Assembly (NCBI GenBank): GCA_014218215.1
Contig: CP043652.1
Coordinates: 4,278,001 to 4,342,000 of the forward strand
Source of the DNA: Geodermatophilaceae bacterium NBWT11
Lineage (GTDB): Bacteria > Actinomycetota > Actinomycetes > Mycobacteriales > Geodermatophilaceae
Direction of reading: 5' to 3'
Length of the DNA stretch: 64,000 nucleotides
Part shown: one piece after another, positions 53,712 to 63,731 of the stretch
Layout of the letters: every line of letters starts with the position of its first letter
Numbering within the stretch: position 1 is the first letter of the stretch
Notes under the pieces: model-generated
What the model saw: only the letters and a program-made list of their open reading frames with translations
What the model was told of the DNA's origin: nothing
The model's database searches: none
Made by a program: the position numbers and the translations under genes

Positions 53712-54448
53712 GCTGCCTCTCCCGACGGGATCAGGGCGGAGACGAGGTAGGAGGCCACCTCGCCGGGGGTGGTGCCGCGGCCGAAGACCTTGTCCACGCC
53801 GAGCTCGCGGGCCATGGCCGGGTCGAAGCGCGGCCCGCCGACGACGAGCAGCGGCCGGTCCTCCCCCATCGCCTCGCGGAAGGCGCCGGCCAGCTCGCGG
53901 GTGTTGCGCAGGTGCGCGTCCTTCTGGGTCACGACCTGGCTGACCAGCACGGCGTCGGCGCGGGCGGCGCGGGCCTGGCCGACCAGCTCGGGCACGGTGA
54001 CCTGGGCGCCGAGGTTGGCGACGTCCATCTCCCGGTAGTACTCCAGGCCCTTCTCCCCCGCGAAGCCCTTGAGGTTGAGGATCGCGTCGATGCCCACGGT
54101 GTGGGCGTCGGTGCCGATGCAGGCGCCCATGACCACGAGCTTGCGGTGCAGCCGGGTCTTGATCACCCCGTTGACCTCGCTGGGGCTGAGCAGCGGGTAG
54201 GCCCGCTCCTCGACCTCGACGGCGTCCAGGTCGACCAGGTGGGACACCGAGCCGTAGACGACGAAGAACGTGTAGCCGGTGCCGATGCCGTGGCTGTGCA
54301 CCACCATCGCGGGGCTGATGCCCATCTTGGTGGCCAGCTGCAGCGCCGCGCCCTCGGCCCTGGGCCCCGGCGGCACCGGGAGGGTGAACGACGTCTGGAT
54401 CATCCCGTCGCCGGTGGTGTCGCCGTAGGGCCGGACGATGCTGCTCAC
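53708..54448 (-). CDS. kamE: Lysine 5,6-aminomutase beta subunit
   Basis: A 246-residue cobalamin-binding subunit. D114-A-H116-x2-G119 gives the base-off B12 motif (H116 the cobalt ligand), and the PLP-lysine should be K127 in LNLKGFAGEKG, eleven residues after the histidine as in the clostridial enzyme. VVGGPRF and a glycine-rich end complete the Rossmann fold. GTG overlaps the kamD stop by four bases. With KamD it moves the terminal amino group of beta-lysine to C5 using adenosylcobalamin and PLP. Confidence 0.95.
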   Translation of the reverse strand: MSSIVRPYGDTTGDGMIQTSFTLPVPPGPRAEGAALQLATKMGISPAMVVHSHGIGTGYTFFVVYGSVSHLVDLDAVEVEERAYPLLSPSEVNGVIKTRLHRKLVVMGACIGTDAHTVGIDAILNLKGFAGEKGLEYYREMDVANLGAQVTVPELVGQARAARADAVLVSQVVTQKDAHLRNTRELAGAFREAMGEDRPLLVVGGPRFDPAMARELGVDKVFGRGTTPGEVASYLVSALIPSGEAA

Positions 54449-56016
54449 AGCGCTGCCTCCATGAGCTCGGTGGCGGGGTCGAGGTGGCCCGGCGCCTTCA
54501 CGACCACGCCGTCCAGGCCCTTGCCGCGGTCGGCCGGACGCCTGGTGATGCCGAACGTGCCGGCCGCGATGGAGGGCAGCAGGCCGTCGGTGGTGATCCG
54601 CTCCAGCAGCTCGACGGCTTCGCCGAGGACGGTGTGCGCGCGGGTGTCGATGAACCCGCCCGGCGGCGGGGCGAAGTCCTCCCCCAGTCCCCCGGCGGCG
54701 TCCAGCACGTAGCGCACGTTGCGCAGGGCCAGGTCCCGGTCGGAGAGCCACGGGGTCACGACGGCCTCGGTCATCATCCCGACCAGCAGGATCGACTGGT
54801 CGGTGAGCATCCCGGCCAGGTTGAAGAACCCGTCGAGCAGGTAGCCGCCGAACACGTCCCCGGTCATGTGCTTGGTGGGCGGCATCCACTTGAGCGGGGC
54901 GTCGGGGAACAGCGAGCGGGCCAGCATCGCGTGCGCCAGCTCGAGCCGGAAGGACTCCGGCACCGTCGGGTTGATCTCGAAGGCGTGGCCCAGGCCCAGC
55001 TGCCAGTCCTCGAGGCCGGCCTCGCGGGCGAACCGCTCGTTGAGCAGCTGGCTGACCGTGACGGTGTGCGCCTCGTCGACGGCGTCGGCGGTGGTGAGGT
55101 AGTTGTCCTCGCCGGTGTTGATGATGATCCCGGCGCGGGCGTGCACCATCCGGCTGAACCGCTGGTCGACGAAGGTGCGGATCGGGTTGATGTCGCGGAA
55201 GAGGATCCCGTACATCGCGTCGTTCAACATCATGTCCAGCCGCTCGAGCCCGGCCAGAGCGGCGATCTCGGGCATGCAGAGCCCCGAGGCGTAGTTCGTG
55301 AGCCGGACGTAGCGGCCGAGCTCCGCGCTCACCTCGTCCAGGGCGGCCCGCATGAGCCGGAAGTTCTCCTGGGTGGCGTACGTGCCGGCGTACCCGGTGC
55401 GGGTGGCGCCCTCGGGCACGTAGTCCAGCAGCGACTGCCCGGTGGAGCGGATGACGGCGATGACGTCGGCCCCGGCGCGTGCGGCCGCCTGGGCCTGCGG
55501 GATGTCCTCGTAGATGTCGCCGGTGGCCACGATCAGGTAGATCCAGGGACGGCGGGGCGGGTCGCCGTGGGTGGCCACCAGCTCCTCCCGCCGGCGGCGG
55601 GCGTCGTCCACCCGGGAGAGACCGGCACCGACGGCGGCGAGCGCGGCCTCACGGGCCCGCTCCTCGTCCCCGCCGGTGGGCACCTCGAAGCGGGCGGTGC
55701 CCGCGCCGACCTGCTCGGCGACGTCCTGCACGGTCGCGGCCGCACCCGAGGCGATCGCGTGCCAGACCGGCAGCGCCACGCCGTGCTCCAGCCCCACCTG
55801 CTCGCGGACGACGTCCACCACCCGGTTCACCCAGGGGATCTCGCCCTCCCCGGTCACCGGATCGGTGCCCTCGAGGCCGGCCAGCCGCAGCACGGCGCGC
55901 TCGACGGAGACGGTGGTGTGCTTCCCGGCCAGGTCGATCACCGGTTGGGCGGCCTGCTCGGCCAGCTCGCGGGCCCGGGTGACCAGGCCCGGGTCCAGGG
56001 TCAGACGGGCGCTCAC
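54445..56016 (-). CDS. kamD: Lysine 5,6-aminomutase alpha subunit
   Basis: A 523-residue subunit of normal length: KHTTVSVERAVLRLAGLEG, YLIVATGDIYEDIPQAQAAARAGADVIAVIRSTGQSLLDYVPEGATRTGYAGTYATQENFRLMR, LTNYASGLCMPEIAALAGLERLDMMLNDAMYGILFRDINPIRTFVDQRFSR, LKWMPPTKHMTGDVF. It is the catalytic TIM-barrel part of D-ornithine/lysine aminomutases. GTG after GAGGAG. Its start overlaps the amidohydrolase stop by four bases. Confidence 0.96.
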   Translation of the reverse strand: MSARLTLDPGLVTRARELAEQAAQPVIDLAGKHTTVSVERAVLRLAGLEGTDPVTGEGEIPWVNRVVDVVREQVGLEHGVALPVWHAIASGAAATVQDVAEQVGAGTARFEVPTGGDEERAREAALAAVGAGLSRVDDARRRREELVATHGDPPRRPWIYLIVATGDIYEDIPQAQAAARAGADVIAVIRSTGQSLLDYVPEGATRTGYAGTYATQENFRLMRAALDEVSAELGRYVRLTNYASGLCMPEIAALAGLERLDMMLNDAMYGILFRDINPIRTFVDQRFSRMVHARAGIIINTGEDNYLTTADAVDEAHTVTVSQLLNERFAREAGLEDWQLGLGHAFEINPTVPESFRLELAHAMLARSLFPDAPLKWMPPTKHMTGDVFGGYLLDGFFNLAGMLTDQSILLVGMMTEAVVTPWLSDRDLALRNVRYVLDAAGGLGEDFAPPPGGFIDTRAHTVLGEAVELLERITTDGLLPSIAAGTFGITRRPADRGKGLDGVVVKAPGHLDPATELMEAAL

Positions 56017-57527
56017 GGCTCTCCTCGGACGGCGTGGCCACCGACGAGCAGGCCACGGCAGGTGGGCCGGGCGCGCTCGGCGAGCACCCCGGACAGGGTC
56101 AGGTCGGTGGCCCACAGCGCCAGGTGCGCCGGAGCTCCGACGGCCAGGGGGCCGTCGCGGTGCTCGGCGCGGGCGGCGTGCCAGCCGCCGTGGGTCGCTG
56201 CGTCGTAGGCGTCGAAGGGGCGCAGTCCGGCGCCGGGGGTGCGGTGGTCGACGGCGGCGTGCACCCCGCCCCAGGGGTCCAGCGGGGTGACCGGGGCGTC
56301 GGAGCCCAGCGCGATCGCCACCCCGCCGTCGGACAGGTCGGCCAGCGGGTTGCAGGCCAGCGCCCGCTCCACGCCCAGGCGCTCGGCGTACATGCCGCCG
56401 TCCCCGCCCCAGGCGGCGTCGAAGGCCGGCTGGACGCTGGCGACCATCCCCCAGCGGCGCATCTCCTCGATGGCGTCGACCGACACCATCTCGACGTGCT
56501 CGAGCCGGTGCCGGCACGCCCGGACGGCGTCGCGGCCCAGCTGCTCCCCCACCGCGGCGACGGCGGCGAGCACCTGGTCGACCGCGGCGTCCCCGATGCA
56601 GTGGAACCCGGCCTGCACTCCGGCGGCGGTGCAGGCACGCACGTGCTCGACCAGCTGGGCGGTCTCGAAGCGCAGCACGCCCGAGGTGTCGGGCCGGTCG
56701 GTGTACGGGGTGGACAGCGCCGCGGTGTGCGAGCCGAACGCGCCGTCGCAGAACAGGTCGCCCCCGGCGCCGGCCAGGTCCAGCTCGCGGACGACGTCCA
56801 GCCCGCCGCGCTCGGACAGCTCCCCCCACCAGCCGAGCACCAGCGGGCCCGGGGCCCGGCGGGACAGCTGCAGCAGCCCGGCGAGGTCCTCGGCGCTGGA
56901 CACCTCGGGGCCGGCCATCTCGTGCACGCAGCCGATGCCCAGGTCGGCGGCGAGGTCGAGGGTGGCGCGCTGGGCGGTGGTGCGTTGGCCCGGGTCCACG
57001 GCGCCGTAGGCGGCCTGCCGGGCGGCGTGGTGGGCGTCCAGGCGCAGCTGGCCGTCGGCGGAGTACCCGGGCAGCGCGGTGATGCCCGGGATCCGGTCGA
57101 GCAGCGCGGTGGACACGGTCGCGGAGTGCACGTCGACCCGGGCGAGGTAGGCCGGCCGGTCCCCCACCACGGCGTCCAGGTCGTGCCGGGTGAGTGCGCG
57201 GCCCTCGGGCCAGTCGTTCTCCTCCCAGCCGGTCCCCAGCACGATGCCGCTGCGGTGCCGGGCCACGTGCGCGGCGACCGCCGCCAGCGCCGACCGCAGG
57301 CTGTCCGCCCCGTGCAGGTCCAGCCCGGTCAGGGCCAGCCCGGTGGCGGTGGCGTGCACGTGGGCGTCGACGAACGCCGGGGTGAGCAGGGCGCCGCCGC
57401 CGTCCAGGGTCCGGTCCGCCGTCGGGGCGTCGGCGGACGGCCCGACCCAGGCGATCGCGCCGTCGACGACGTGCAGGGCCCGGCCGCGGGCGTCCCCGAC
57501 GGTGACGTCGCCGATCAGGAGCGACAT
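56013..57527 (-). CDS. Amidohydrolase, YtcJ-like metal-dependent
   Basis: A 504-residue amidohydrolase of the YtcJ/Amidohydro_3 group: metal ligands in FVDAHVHATATG (H-x-H), GTGWEENDWPEGRALTRHDLD, DLFCDGAFGSHTAAL, GFHCIGDAAVDQVLAAV, HRLEHVEMVSVDAI, QPAFDAAWGG and ALGSDAPVTPLDPWGGVHAAVD. Substrates for this group are mostly unknown amides or carbamates. It sits inside the lysine-degradation operon between kdd and kamD, coupled to both by overlaps, which is unusual and suggests an extra step or entry compound. Confidence 0.9.
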   Translation of the reverse strand: MSLLIGDVTVGDARGRALHVVDGAIAWVGPSADAPTADRTLDGGGALLTPAFVDAHVHATATGLALTGLDLHGADSLRSALAAVAAHVARHRSGIVLGTGWEENDWPEGRALTRHDLDAVVGDRPAYLARVDVHSATVSTALLDRIPGITALPGYSADGQLRLDAHHAARQAAYGAVDPGQRTTAQRATLDLAADLGIGCVHEMAGPEVSSAEDLAGLLQLSRRAPGPLVLGWWGELSERGGLDVVRELDLAGAGGDLFCDGAFGSHTAALSTPYTDRPDTSGVLRFETAQLVEHVRACTAAGVQAGFHCIGDAAVDQVLAAVAAVGEQLGRDAVRACRHRLEHVEMVSVDAIEEMRRWGMVASVQPAFDAAWGGDGGMYAERLGVERALACNPLADLSDGGVAIALGSDAPVTPLDPWGGVHAAVDHRTPGAGLRPFDAYDAATHGGWHAARAEHRDGPLAVGAPAHLALWATDLTLSGVLAERARPTCRGLLVGGHAVRGEP

Positions 57528-58546
57528 CAGTGGACGCGCGGGTCGATCAGGGCCCGCACGCCGGGGGTCCGGCGGTACAGGTCCAGGGCCAGGGCGGCGT
57601 GCCCCGGCGTGTAGCCGTTCCCGATCAGCATGGTCACGTCCGCTGCCATCCCCTCGGCGCCCAGGGCCGCCCCCGGGAAGGAGGTGGCCATGGAGAAGAA
57701 GACCACGGTGCCGCCGTCGGCCGTCGCGAGGACCGCGCCGTGTTCGGCCCCGGCCACGTCCACGCAGACCACGGTCACGTCGACCGGGTCGCCGACCGCC
57801 GCGGCGACGGCCAGCGGGTCGGTGGCGTCGGCGACGACGACCTCGTCGGCCAGCCCGGCCGCCCGCAGCGCGGTGGCCTCCTGCTCGGTGCGGACGACGC
57901 CGACCAGCCGGTGGGCGTGGGCGTCCCGGGCCGCGGCCAGCGACAGGCAGCCGGACTTCCCGGCGGCACCGATCACCGCGACCGACGACCCCCGCCGGAC
58001 CACGCGCTCGGTGGCCGCCGGGGCCCCGCACACGTCGAGCACCGCCAGCGCCACGTTCTCCGGCAGGTCCTCGGGGAGCACGGCGGCGATGGACCGGGCG
58101 AAGAGCACCGCGGTGCCGGTGGTGGGCACCTGCTCGCCGAGCCCGTCCCAGCGCTCGAGGCCGTCGGTGATCCGCAGCGGGGTCAGCGTCAGCGACACCA
58201 GGGTGGCCACCCGGTCGCCGACGGCCAGGCCCAGCGGGGAGTCGTCGCCCACTTCGGCGACCCGACCGATGAGCATCCCGCCGGAGCCGGTGACGGGGTT
58301 CTGCATCTTGCCGCGCCGGCCCACGATCTCCAGCACGGCGGCCCGCACCGCGTCGCCGTCCCCTGCGTGGGCCTCGCCGAGCTGCCGGAAGGACGCCGCG
58401 TCGAGGTTGAGCCGCTCGACGTCGATGCGCACCTCGTCGCGGCCGGTCGGGGCATCGGGGTCCAGCCGGTGCGCGGCCTGGGGCAGCACGCCCACCGGCT
58501 CGAGCACCCGGTGCACGCCCAGTGCCCGCTCTGCCGCCGTCGTCAC
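57527..58546 (-). CDS. kdd: L-erythro-3,5-diaminohexanoate dehydrogenase
   Basis: A 339-residue NAD(P) enzyme of the Kdd family: GVHRVLEPVGVLPQAAHRLD, RLNLDAASFRQL, GRRGKMQNPVTGSGGMLIGRVAEVG, VIGAAGKSGCLSLAAARD (dinucleotide loop), GTVVFFSMATSFPGAALGAEGMAADVTMLIGNGY. GTG 58546 is preferred because GAGGAGTTCCAG precedes it; an upstream GTG at 58609 would lie inside the divergent promoter. It oxidises 3,5-diaminohexanoate to 3-keto-5-aminohexanoate. Confidence 0.93.
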   Translation of the reverse strand: MTTAAERALGVHRVLEPVGVLPQAAHRLDPDAPTGRDEVRIDVERLNLDAASFRQLGEAHAGDGDAVRAAVLEIVGRRGKMQNPVTGSGGMLIGRVAEVGDDSPLGLAVGDRVATLVSLTLTPLRITDGLERWDGLGEQVPTTGTAVLFARSIAAVLPEDLPENVALAVLDVCGAPAATERVVRRGSSVAVIGAAGKSGCLSLAAARDAHAHRLVGVVRTEQEATALRAAGLADEVVVADATDPLAVAAAVGDPVDVTVVCVDVAGAEHGAVLATADGGTVVFFSMATSFPGAALGAEGMAADVTMLIGNGYTPGHAALALDLYRRTPGVRALIDPRVH

Positions 58547-58583
58547 CTGGAACTCCTCGTCGTCACTGGTGCTGAACACGGAG

Positions 58584-58589
58584 AACCTA
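58584..58589 (-). promoter_or_regulatory. -10 element (TAGGTT) of kdd operon
   Basis: TAGGTT on the minus strand, just downstream of the GAAAC-N4-GTTTC dyad, 38 bases before the kdd GTG. Confidence 0.5.
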
Positions 58590-58593
58590 TCGC

Positions 58594-58607
58594 GAAACTC
58601 ACGTTTC
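58594..58607. promoter_or_regulatory. Palindrome GAAAC-N4-GTTTC, candidate operator of lysine genes
   Basis: Perfect dyad of five-base arms around TCAC. It overlaps the likely -35 region of kdd and lies just upstream of the kamA -10 (58624), so one repressor could control both directions. The regulator is not in the window. Confidence 0.6.
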
Positions 58608-58623
58608 ACCGAACGATCTCCCG

Positions 58624-58629
58624 TAGGGT
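58624..58629 (+). promoter_or_regulatory. -10 element (TAGGGT) of kamA
   Basis: TAGGGT 48 bases before the kamA GTG, 16 bases after the dyad at 58594-58607. Confidence 0.45.
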
Positions 58630-58676
58630 GTCGGAGTCGCCACCGGAAGTGCCGGTCGCACCCGCAGGAGGACGTC

Positions 58677-60083
58677 GTGCTGGAGCAGCCCTACGAGTAC
58701 ACCGCCCGGGAGCTCGTCGAGCCCGACTGGCGTCGGCTGCCCGGGTTCGCCGACGTGACGGCGGAGCAGTGGCGCAGCGCCCAGTGGCAGCGGGTCAACT
58801 GCGTGAAGAACCTGCGTCAGCTGCGCGGGGTCTACGGCGACCTGCTCGACGAGTCCTTCTTCGCCGACGTCGAGGCCGACCAGGCCGGCCGCGCCACGAT
58901 GTCGCTGCTGCTGCCCCCGCAGATGCTCAACACCATGGTCCCGGCGGCGGTCCCGACCACCGCGGCGATGCTGGCCGACCCGGTGCGCCGCTACATGCTC
59001 CCGGTGGCGTCGGACCGGCTGCCCGGGGCCGCCGCCAGCCACCCCTACGCCGCCCGGGACTCCCTGCACGAGCACGAGATGTGGGCCGTCGAGGGCCTCA
59101 CCCACCGCTACCCCACCAAGGTGCTCGCCGAGCTGCTCCCCACCTGCCCCCAGTACTGCGGGCACTGCACCCGGATGGACCTCGTCGGCAACTCCACCCC
59201 GGCGGTCACCAAGCTGAAGTTCGACCTCAAGCCGGTCGACCGGCAGGCCGAGATGCTGGCCTACCTGCGGGCCACCCCCGGCGTCCGGGACGTCGTGGTC
59301 TCCGGCGGTGACGTCGCCAACCTGCCGTTCAAGAACCTCGAGGCGTTCGTCTCCGGCCTGCTGGAGATCGACTCCGTCCGCGACATCCGGCTGGCCACCA
59401 AGGCGCTGATGGGGATGCCGCAGCACTGGCTGCAGGACGACGTCGTCGCCGGGATGACCCGGCTGGCGACGACGGCGCGGTCGCGCGGGGTGTCCCTCGC
59501 CGTCCACACGCACGTCAACGCCGCCCAGTCGGTCACCCCGCTGGTGGCCGAGGCCGCCCAGGCGATGCTGGCCGCCGGCGTGCGCGACGTGCGCAACCAG
59601 GGCGTCCTGTTGCACGGGGTCAACGACACCGCCGGCCAGCTGCTGGACCTGTGCTTCGCGCTGCTGGACGGTGCCGGTGTCACGCCCTACTACTTCTACA
59701 TGTGCGACATGATCCCCTCGGCCGAGCACTGGCGGGTGCCGCTGTCGGTGGCGCAGACCCTGCAGCACGACCTGATGGGCTACCTGCCCGGCTTCGCCAC
59801 CCCGCGGATCGTCTGCGACGTGCCCTACGTCGGAAAGCGCTGGGTGCACCAGGTCGCCGAGTACGACCGCGAGCGCGGGATCAGCTACTGGACCAAGAAC
59901 TACCGCACCGGCATCGAGCGCACCGACGAGGCCGCGCTGGACCGCCGCTACACCTACTACGACCCGATCCCCTCGCTCCCGGCGTCCGGCCGGCAGTGGT
60001 GGGCCGACCGCGCCGTCGACCCGGTGGCCGCCGACGCCGCAGCGGTGGCCTCCCGCGAGGCCTCCCTGGCCCAGCTGTCCTGA
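58677..60083 (+). CDS. kamA: Lysine 2,3-aminomutase family radical SAM enzyme
   Basis: A 468-residue protein. Radical SAM cluster C157-x3-C161-x2-C164 in CPQYCGHC, VVSGGDVANLPFKNLEAF, IRLATKALMGMPQHWL, VHTHVNAAQSVTPLV, RNQGVLLHGVNDTAGQLLDL, YYFYMCDMIPSAEHWRVPL and YVGKRW, whose lysine probably binds PLP. It converts L-lysine to beta-lysine, feeding KamDE. The sequence is that of the actinobacterial branch, with longer N- and C-terminal parts than the clostridial enzyme. GTG follows GGAGG. Confidence 0.92.
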   Translation: MLEQPYEYTARELVEPDWRRLPGFADVTAEQWRSAQWQRVNCVKNLRQLRGVYGDLLDESFFADVEADQAGRATMSLLLPPQMLNTMVPAAVPTTAAMLADPVRRYMLPVASDRLPGAAASHPYAARDSLHEHEMWAVEGLTHRYPTKVLAELLPTCPQYCGHCTRMDLVGNSTPAVTKLKFDLKPVDRQAEMLAYLRATPGVRDVVVSGGDVANLPFKNLEAFVSGLLEIDSVRDIRLATKALMGMPQHWLQDDVVAGMTRLATTARSRGVSLAVHTHVNAAQSVTPLVAEAAQAMLAAGVRDVRNQGVLLHGVNDTAGQLLDLCFALLDGAGVTPYYFYMCDMIPSAEHWRVPLSVAQTLQHDLMGYLPGFATPRIVCDVPYVGKRWVHQVAEYDRERGISYWTKNYRTGIERTDEAALDRRYTYYDPIPSLPASGRQWWADRAVDPVAADAAAVASREASLAQLS

Positions 60084-61613: not shown

Positions 61614-63731
61614 TCAGCACAGCGACAGCTGCTCGGGCTCCTCCACCTCGACGACCGTCACCGGCCGGTCGGGCAGCGACCCGGCCGGGAAGCTGGCCGC
61701 GTCGTCCCCGGGCAGCCCCCCGACCCCGCGGGCCACTCCCCCGGTGTGGCTGTCCAGCCCGTGCGCGGCGAGCATCGGGGCGACCCGGGCCGAGAGCCAC
61801 TGCCGGTAGTCCGCGGGCACGTAGGCGCCCCGCCCGTACAGCGCCCTGTACCGGCTGACCAGGCGAGGGTGCTCCCGGGACAGCCAGGTGGTGAACCACT
61901 CCCGCGCCCCGGGTCGCAGGTGCAGCGGCACCACCGTGATCCCGGTGGCACCGGCCTCGGCGACGGCCGCGATGGCCTTCTCCAGGTGGTCGCGCTGGTC
62001 GGTGAGCCCCGGCAGGACCGGGGCGAGGAACACCCCGCACGGCAGCCCGGCGTCCCGGATGCGGCGGACCAGCTCCAGGCGCGCCTTCGGGGTCGGCACA
62101 CCGGGTTCCAGCGAGCGGTGCAGGTCGTCGTCCCAGATGGCCAGCGAGACGCCCATCCCGATCGGCACGTCCCTGCTGGCAGCGGCCAGCAGCGGCAGGT
62201 CGCGCTGGGCCAGCGTGCCCTTGGTGAGGATCGAGAACGGGGTGCCCGACCGCGCCAGGGCCTCGATCACCGGCGGCATCAGCCGGTAGCGGCCCTCGGC
62301 GCGCTGGTAGGGGTCGGTGTTGGTGCCCAGCGCCACGTGCTCGCGCTTCCAGGACGCCCGGCCCAGCTCGCGCCGCAGCACCTCGGCGATGTTGGTCTTG
62401 ACCACGATCTCCTGGTCGAAGTCAGCCCCGGTGTCCAGCTCCAGCCACTCGTGGGTGCCGCGGGCGAAGCAGTTGTGGCTGACCACCCCGTTGGCGATGA
62501 AGTCGCCGGTACCGGTGGTGATGTCGTACATGGGCAGCTCGAGGCCCAGAGGCTCGACCGAGGCGACCCGGAGATCGGCATCGCTCTTGATGGCGATGCC
62601 GTCGACGGAGCACTTGCGGCGGGTGGCCGGGTCCACCAGGTGGATGAAGCGCATGTGCTCCCGCAGGCCGCCGCGCAGACGGACGTACCCCAACCCGTTG
62701 GCGCGCTCGCGGTCCTCCCGGACGACGTCGAAGCCGAAGGCGCGGAAGGCCTCCTCGGTGTGTCGCAGGATCTCCGGATCGCAGTTGGCGACCCGCAGCA
62801 CGCCCGCACTCCGAGACCCCTCGGCGTCGAAGACCCCGGCGAGGAAGCCCCGGTGCCACTCCTCGCTCGGTGCGTCAGGCCAGGCCACCAGCTCGCCGAT
62901 GCGGTCGTGGTCTGCTGTGCGCTGCGTCCGGATGGCGGTCATGGGCCGACGGACGTCGGTCCCTGCCGTGAACTGGAACCGGTCGGTCCGAACACCCTCC
63001 TCGGCCAACATCGCCTGCGCTCGGTCCAGCGCCTCGACGTCGGCCAAGGCCAGTCGAAAACGGTGGACGACTCGCGTCCTCCCTCCCGGGCCCGCGTACT
63101 CGTAGCGCCCTCGAGTCGCGTCGCCACGGATCATGCCGGCGAGGTAGCCCCGTCGGTGGTCGTCGCAGGACTTGGGTGTCTCGGCGGTCAGCCCGAACCC
63201 GAGGAGCGAGTCGTTCGGGGTGAGGTGCGGCCGCCGGTCAGCTCCGGACGTGGCGCCGGTGACGTGTTTCCAGCCACGGTTGGTGAGGAAGCGGTGGTCG
63301 CCGCTGGCCACGAGTTCGGTCCCGTCGTGCAGCCGCACCCGGTGCCCGGGCTTGCGCGTGCTCCAGTGCGCCAGCACCTCGGTGGTCACGTACCGGCGGT
63401 AGGACCCCACGACCTCGGTGCCGATGATCTGGTCGCCGACCCGCAGGTCGGCGATCCGTCTGGTCCGGCCGTCCGCCATCAGGATGGCCGTGTCCCCCGT
63501 TAGGCAGTACACGCACGCGTGGGAGCAGCCCCGGAACGTGTTGATCGTGTAGGCGAAGGGCATGGCCGAGCCCTTGGGCACGGCGTTCAGCGCGGACTTG
63601 GAGCGCACCTCGTGCAGGGTGAGGCCGGGGAACTCGGGCACCTGGAGGCTGCGCAGCAGGCCGGCCACGGTGGGCAGCCCGGGGAGCGTCTCGGGCTCCA
63701 CGAGGTCGAGCCGTTGGGCGTCCCATCGCAT
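61614..63731 (-). CDS. Rv2578c-family radical SAM protein interrupted by an intein
   Basis: The 705-residue precursor has N-extein 1-75, intein 76-420 and C-extein 421-705; splicing gives about 360 residues. N-extein: MRWDAQRLDL, KSALNAVPKGSAMPFAYTINTFRGCSHACVY. C-extein: CFARGTHEWLELDTGADFDQEIVVKTNIAEVL, ALGTNTDPYQRAEG, FSILTKGTLAQRDLPLL. After splicing, the cluster motif C69-x3-C73-x2-C is rebuilt only when C421 joins Y75. The family is spore-photoproduct-lyase-like and uncharacterised. The ATG at 63731 is chosen as start; an earlier GTG adds six residues. Confidence 0.92.
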   Translation of the reverse strand: MRWDAQRLDLVEPETLPGLPTVAGLLRSLQVPEFPGLTLHEVRSKSALNAVPKGSAMPFAYTINTFRGCSHACVYCLTGDTAILMADGRTRRIADLRVGDQIIGTEVVGSYRRYVTTEVLAHWSTRKPGHRVRLHDGTELVASGDHRFLTNRGWKHVTGATSGADRRPHLTPNDSLLGFGLTAETPKSCDDHRRGYLAGMIRGDATRGRYEYAGPGGRTRVVHRFRLALADVEALDRAQAMLAEEGVRTDRFQFTAGTDVRRPMTAIRTQRTADHDRIGELVAWPDAPSEEWHRGFLAGVFDAEGSRSAGVLRVANCDPEILRHTEEAFRAFGFDVVREDRERANGLGYVRLRGGLREHMRFIHLVDPATRRKCSVDGIAIKSDADLRVASVEPLGLELPMYDITTGTGDFIANGVVSHNCFARGTHEWLELDTGADFDQEIVVKTNIAEVLRRELGRASWKREHVALGTNTDPYQRAEGRYRLMPPVIEALARSGTPFSILTKGTLAQRDLPLLAAASRDVPIGMGVSLAIWDDDLHRSLEPGVPTPKARLELVRRIRDAGLPCGVFLAPVLPGLTDQRDHLEKAIAAVAEAGATGITVVPLHLRPGAREWFTTWLSREHPRLVSRYRALYGRGAYVPADYRQWLSARVAPMLAAHGLDSHTGGVARGVGGLPGDDAASFPAGSLPDRPVTVVEVEEPEQLSLC
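62472..63506 (-). mobile_element. Intein with LAGLIDADG homing endonuclease
   Basis: 345 residues. Starts C1-L-T-G-D-T (block A), block B DGTELVASGDHRFLT (H71), then a DOD endonuclease with block C RGYLAGMIRGDA (119-130) and block E RGFLAGVFDAEG (219-230); both keep the catalytic acid (D128-129 region and E229). Ends with MYDITT and DFIANGVVSHN (blocks F and G), followed by the +1 Cys. All splicing residues are present, so it should splice and the endonuclease could be active. Base composition appears somewhat less GC-rich than the flanks. Confidence 0.9.

Follow-up and report, generated by a model that had tools for sequence, protein, structure and literature searches.

Does an intein that splits the cluster-binding cysteine motif of a radical SAM enzyme serve its host as a switch, or does it merely live there? 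The question is raised by a gene in a 64,000-nucleotide stretch of the chromosome of Geodermatophilaceae bacterium NBWT11 (hereafter, the window), in which an intein separates the second cluster cysteine from the third. We consider it very likely that this is a selfish class 1 intein with a LAGLIDADG homing endonuclease (HEN), which cycles at the third-cysteine site of Rv2578c-type enzymes. The distribution of the element and the constraint on the enzyme agree better with selfish homing than with a gate that is conserved.

The precursor (Table 1) matches the NCBIfam profile NF038136, ‘intein-containing Rv2578c family radical SAM protein’, with 855.3 bits (cut-off, 700), from residue 1 to 660 and over the complete profile (1–574 of 574), such that extein and intein are both covered; a match to NF038135 reaches 505.6 bits (cut-off, 430). 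The element is therefore already catalogued, as a member of NF038136. The intein N-terminal model TIGR01445 starts at residue 76 (29.7 bits; cut-off, 24.5) and the C-terminal model TIGR01443 ends at residue 421 (17.5 bits; cut-off, 15.6). Two Pfam models score under their cut-offs: Intein_splicing (25.3 versus 35.8 bits) and, by a small margin, LAGLIDADG_3 (PF14528; 21.4 versus 22.5 bits). A search of solved structures with the window sequence alone gave no match, and a profile of the precursors weakly matched LAGLIDADG enzymes of solved structure (1dq3, 8e-6; I-DmoI) as well as Hint inteins and NifB (0.006). A structure model from A2 (the window plus 11 loci of named records) has a mean pLDDT of 61.6 and a pTM of 0.47, with pLDDT below 50 at residues 68–82 and 399–437; these are the two splice junctions, where the geometry of C73, C76 and C421 is unreadable. 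Near the intein gene lies a lysine-breakdown cluster (window 54445-60083) that includes a KamA-like radical SAM protein (57630-60083, +; 157 bits, under the cut-off of 199), 3,5-diaminohexanoate dehydrogenase (57527-58609, -) and lysine 5,6-aminomutase alpha (54445-56829, -).

Table 1. Features of the intein-containing gene, in window positions (aa, amino acids of the precursor; intein residues in intein numbering where so marked)
Feature	Position	Strand	Evidence or conservation
Precursor CDS, intein-containing Rv2578c-family radical SAM protein, 705 aa; ATG at 63731, stop at 61614	61614..63731	-	NF038136 match
N-extein, aa 1-75, C-terminal end RGCSHACVY	63507..63731	-	
Intein, aa 76-420 (345 aa), CLTGDT...VVSHN	62472..63506	-	TIGR01445 from aa 76, TIGR01443 to aa 421
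C-extein, aa 421-705, N-terminal end CFARGTHEW; radical SAM domain PF04055	61614..62471	-	
C69, cluster cysteine 1	63525..63527	-	
C73, cluster cysteine 2, splice-junction position -3	63513..63515	-	
C76, intein Cys1, in the precursor register of the third cluster cysteine	63504..63506	-	Cys1 in 48/48 alleles
C421, +1 nucleophile and third cluster cysteine of the mature enzyme	62469..62471	-	+1 Cys in 48/48 alleles
Block B His (intein H71)	63294..63296	-	31/31 full-length inteins
LAGLIDADG motif 1, YLAGMIRGDA, acid D129 (intein)	63117..63146	-	D129 in 31/31
LAGLIDADG motif 2, FLAGVFDAEG, acid E229 (intein)	62817..62846	-	E229 in 28/31
Block F Asp (intein D328)	62523..62525	-	31/31
Penultimate His and terminal Asn (intein H344-N345)	62472..62477	-	31/31

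The junctions read RGCSHACVY / CLTGDT ... VVSHN / CFARGTHEW. The predicted spliced product contains CSHACVYC, that is, a contiguous triad, and the adjacency of Y75 and C421 requires splicing. The insertion is exact: in the intein-free relative G081 (locus L101), which belongs to the same genus, the flanks are identical at 214 of 225 and 440 of 464 nucleotides and the insert is absent, with an extein 95% identical to that of the window over 689 nucleotides (654/689). An earlier sequence-only reading of this DNA had placed the intein directly after C69-x3-C73-V-Y and had taken the +1 residue, C421, as the third cluster cysteine; both are confirmed. Of the 50 intein-free relatives, 49 have a contiguous CX3CX2C (47 found by script, L072 and L082 by reading). 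The remaining one, L081 (G050), has lost the motif: besides the intein it lacks, in frame, the part of the extein that carries the three cluster cysteines, possibly through imprecise loss or an assembly fault.

Class 1 inteins are recognized by a Cys or Ser at position 1, a block B Thr-x-x-His, a block F Asp, a His-Asn end and a +1 nucleophile. In intein numbering, the window element has Cys1, S68-x-x-H71, D328, H344-N345 and a +1 Cys, which makes it a class 1 intein with Ser (S68) for Thr in block B, and its two LAGLIDADG motifs with one acid each (D129 and E229) mark it as a carrier of a LAGLIDADG homing endonuclease. Some of these residue roles are described in a review (PMC10663303). C1, H71, D328, H344, N345 and D129 occur in all 31 full-length inteins of the bacterial family, including that of the window; the second LAGLIDADG acid is missing in three of the 31, and the HN end is kept in all 45 in-frame inteins of the family. 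The splicing ends and both endonuclease acids, described earlier as intact, are indeed so (C1, H71, D328, H344-N345, C+1, D129 and E229). We rejected a dead intein, as the catalytic residues are intact, and infer that the window intein splices and cuts today and that its splicing is constitutive.

The sequence-only reading also held that the enzyme cannot bind its cluster without splicing, a claim that is weakened by a feature it overlooked. The unspliced precursor itself reads C69-x3-C73-x2-C76, with intein Cys1 filling the place of the third cysteine. This precursor CX3CX2C is complete in 48/48 intein alleles of the family and in 30/30 inserts fetched from other families, because any Cys1 intein inserted before the third cysteine copies the motif. 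Loss of cluster binding by the precursor is plausible, as the active site for splicing should hold Cys1 and the intein interrupts the radical SAM protein, although the letters of the sequence give no guarantee of it.

That reading had further proposed a comparison of intein presence among relatives, which we carried out. The enzyme was matched in 104 of 112 genomes of the bacterial family, of which 99 were taken (G067, G071, G075, G096 and G098, with partial or weak matches, were left out), and 98 loci were parsed across both extein halves, with G016, which is split over two contigs, uncounted. An insert at exactly this bond is present in 48 of the 98 parsed alleles and absent from 50, among them same-genus G081. 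The 48 comprise 31 full-length inteins (thirty of 345 amino acids and one of 344), 14 that are shortened in frame and three that are frameshifted. The in-frame mini-inteins span 138–273 amino acids, with deletions at differing places and the endonuclease region partly or wholly gone; Geodermatophilus chilensis (L190) has a 190-amino-acid intein, like that of G044. The three frameshifted alleles (L034, L036 and L037) are all in draft genomes, and their frameshifts may be true decay or sequencing error.

Inteins are common in this bacterial family, as the intein N-terminal model matches 64 of 96 sampled genomes once or more. The only other such match in the genome of the window is in the DnaG primase (G000:C1:3590540-3590749; L213, 835-3210, +), where the intein interrupts the CHC2 zinc finger and is followed immediately by a cysteine (FHC / LAGET ... 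LTGN / CFGC; junction by eye) that we take to be a metal ligand. Each of the two inteins of this genome thus stands just ahead of a cysteine that probably binds metal.

Mapped on a tree built from 95 extein rows (L081, L101 and L102 were left out), presence and absence of the intein take 34 changes; shuffled labels average 32.0, and 413 of the 500 shuffles need 34 or fewer. Intein presence has no detectable phylogenetic signal on this tree. The count of 34 is likely to be too high because the tree is weakly resolved, with 21 of 92 inner branches starred, and the starred branches force at least 17 changes. The 14 mini-inteins need 14 changes. The tree of the inteins themselves follows genera (45 rows; 10 changes versus 27.9 when shuffled, and 8 on the matching extein tree), and intein distances correlate with extein distances (465 pairs; Mantel r 0.65; 0 of 2,000 permutations as high). 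Long-distance jumps within the family are therefore unseen, and exchange must be mostly among close relatives, or else much of the pattern is loss. The intein appears to have long resided at this site in these genera, while close relatives repeatedly gained and lost it. We rejected a recent long-distance arrival in the family, as intein distances track extein distances and the intein groups with its own genus.

Among 86 same-genus pairs of 345-amino-acid inteins, the median dN/dS is 0.16 for the splicing part, 0.21 for the HEN part and 0.12 for the extein, medians that are rough owing to the high dS of many pairs. The constraint on the HEN part, together with the turnover of presence and absence, supports the earlier suggestion of a mobile element. 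In ungapped codon comparisons (60 N-extein and 150 C-extein codons), the extein dN/dS is 0.162 for pairs of empty alleles (194 pairs), 0.140 for mixed pairs (390) and 0.118 for pairs of intein alleles (179). Constraint on the enzyme is similar whether the intein is present or absent, which argues that the intein alleles splice; relaxed selection on the enzyme after intein gain was rejected for the same similarity. Synonymous divergence is in excess for the inteins in 84 of the 86 pairs, which could reflect separate acquisitions and is confounded by their weaker codon bias (GC3 of 0.874 versus 0.943). Phe occupies position +2 in 45 of 48 intein alleles and in 33 of the 49 empty alleles (p 0.0016 by Fisher's test, with kinship uncorrected), an excess that may reflect the endonuclease target or a preference in splicing.

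We propose that the site suits homing, and that imprecise loss is costly, because the DNA is conserved for coding the cluster motif and the encoded third cysteine supplies the +1 nucleophile. The endonuclease would copy the element into intein-free alleles and splicing would restore CX3CX2C; later, the HEN would decay or an empty allele would replace the element.

Turnover is not universal, as is seen in the wider class. The enzyme scored over the cut-off in 158 of 394 genomes of a class sample, from which 40 chosen regions were read and 30 automatic loci parsed (some genomes twice). An intein is present in two of five genomes of genus g83 and in both of g78, and all 23 genomes read from genus g38 are empty. 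In genus g56, a 152-amino-acid intein without LAGLIDADG motifs is found in all 12 sampled genomes, and this endonuclease-less form appears to be fixed there. The usual GDT after Cys1 is replaced by GYA or GHA in all 12 (L133-L144). The g56 intein could have been domesticated, that is, kept since it regulates or stabilizes the enzyme, a reading that we hold to be unlikely. Its uniform length in 12/12 genomes would agree with domestication, as would a ratio of median dN to median dS of 0.26, a 4-fold divergence 1.07 times that of the extein, close to what vertical inheritance would give, and a GC3 of 0.967 versus 0.970. However, selection for splicing should by itself be enough to maintain a mini-intein that is not lost precisely, and the dN/dS of the g56 intein is above that of the extein (0.26 versus 0.14).

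A gate used by the host, as the sequence-only reading suggested, is a possible reading, a legitimate one on chemical grounds and with published precedent, but its distribution is unfavourable: only 48 of 98 alleles have the intein, their spread shows no detectable phylogenetic signal, and constraint on the enzyme is similar where the intein is absent. In its redox form, C73 (position −3) and Cys1 would join in a disulfide under oxidation and block the first splicing step, as in the MoaA intein of Pyrococcus abyssi, such that an oxygen-sensitive enzyme would mature only in a reduced cell. We regard this as rather unlikely. The spacing speaks for it, with Cys-3, Cys1 and Cys+1 in 48/48 alleles. 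Against it, the enzyme conserves Cys-3 for its own need, intein or none, so that this residue is no sign of a switch; 50 of the 98 parsed alleles do without the intein, in no detectable phylogenetic order; and the cytosol is normally reducing. By analogy with the disulfide trap of MoaA, the redox idea nevertheless seems chemically reasonable, and two reviews state that a disulfide between an N-extein cysteine of MoaA and Cys1 controls splicing (PMC10663303, PMC3922620).

Quite improbable, in our view, is a gate in which the precursor CX3CX2C (C69, C73 and Cys1) binds an iron–sulfur cluster or a metal and ties up Cys1, such that splicing and cluster loading would compete. The motif is complete in every intein allele of the family and every fetched insert from other families (48/48 and 30/30), but any Cys1 intein at this place copies it, so its completeness is perhaps meaningless, and Cys1 is expected to be in the Hint active site. 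That the window intein is a dying element that no longer splices or cuts is more improbable still: decay does occur in the family, with three of 48 alleles frameshifted and 14 having lost the HEN in part or whole, yet the window copy keeps its splicing residues and both acids, and the exteins of intein alleles are still constrained.

Inteins precede the same cysteine elsewhere as well. We scanned genome contigs for a triad of cysteines, the first two encoded by TGT, that runs into an intein start and obtained 31 stretches, of which 17 are intein junctions by inspection and 14 are chance-like; the C-terminal junction was in the same frame for 15 of the 17 (exceptions, L180 and L187). Twelve of the 17 are Rv2578c- or PA0069-type enzymes (seven by NCBIfam scan, five by sequence); their hosts are Actinobacteria, a gammaproteobacterium, a deltaproteobacterium, Omnitrophota, Trueperaceae and Myxococcales. 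Another four are AmrS (TIGR04337; two scanned, both over the cut-off, and two by sequence), and one is a PapB-like SPASM protein (72.5 bits versus a cut-off of 340). Two further cases were found apart from the scan pattern. The Tes intein model NF045703 matches an intein-free Tes-like archaeal gene up to position 157 and resumes at 611, which by arithmetic on the profile coordinates is the third cysteine of CNLSCWYC. In P. abyssi MoaA, itself a radical SAM enzyme, the Cys-3/Cys1 arrangement would fit only the spacing from second to third cysteine. The third radical SAM cysteine is thus a recurrent intein niche; as the scan required a third cysteine, it shows recurrence, and a preference over the first or second is beyond its reach.

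The AmrS, PapB-like and Tes inteins likewise stand directly before the third triad cysteine, but their exteins differ from that of the window. The three AmrS inteins tested end in KN/CQN and gave no match to the window intein by blastp at E 0.01; one AmrS intein (L191) weakly matches two relatives of the window intein, L173 (8e-4) and L192 (0.007). In seven PA0069-type loci (L173, L175, L178, L188, L192, L194 and L202), six of them outside Actinobacteria, the intein is 45–64% identical to that of the window and the C-extein only 34–40%; L188 was typed without an NCBIfam scan and has a C-extein of only 64 amino acids, and L178 and L194 fall slightly short of the PA0069 cut-off. Within the family, by contrast, the intein is not the more similar part (69 versus 74% for L021 and 77 versus 78% for L190), and of eight Rv2578c-type actinobacterial comparisons, seven have the C-extein ahead (for example, L021 and, with 52 versus 64%, L199), the exception being L165, with 61 versus 53%. 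Because of this reversal, the intein has probably been transferred between distant hosts, into the homologous site. We sought a phage source, and no relative of intein A1 was confirmed among viral contigs.

We see a small chance that the third-cysteine niche extends across the superfamily as a shared checkpoint, in which oxidation, a metal or a nascent cluster on the decoy CX3CX2C would stall splicing in unrelated radical SAM enzymes, and which some hosts would have fixed as a HEN-less mini-intein. Cys-3, Cys1 and Cys+1 would then coincide with two true cluster ligands and one mimic. The recurrence before the same cluster cysteine and the published redox-trapped case make this a concrete hypothesis for the whole superfamily, and a literature search by title returned no work on radical SAM triad inteins as a class. 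At a single catalytic site, one bacterial family displays the stages of the life cycle (empty, full, endonuclease lost and broken), and turnover is so high that intein presence cannot be predicted from where an allele falls on the extein tree; the natural allele pairs of this family make ‘selfish or regulatory’ a testable question.

Among known systems, NF038136 is the same enzyme family, matched over its full length, and the window protein differs from it in nothing of substance. The original work on redox trapping of the P. abyssi MoaA intein is reportedly that of Callahan et al. 2011. That intein has the same spacing of Cys-3 and Cys1 as the 48/48 alleles here, but it interrupts a different enzyme, and the trapping is reported for MoaA. 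According to a 2023 review, a disulfide between the N-extein cysteine and Cys1 blocks the MoaA intein and reduction releases it (PMC10663303); a 2014 review gives the cysteine as −3 (PMC3922620). The SufB intein of Mycobacterium tuberculosis, with splicing that is reported to be oxidation-sensitive (PMC6195587), likewise sits in a protein of an iron–sulfur pathway, although SufB is a scaffold protein, unlike the radical SAM enzyme here. The homing cycle, its asynchronous course and precise loss by recombination with empty alleles (PMC1654191), the preference of inteins for conserved sites (PMC2814812) and the coexistence of intein-free and intein-bearing alleles in Halobacteria (PMC4071816) have all been described.
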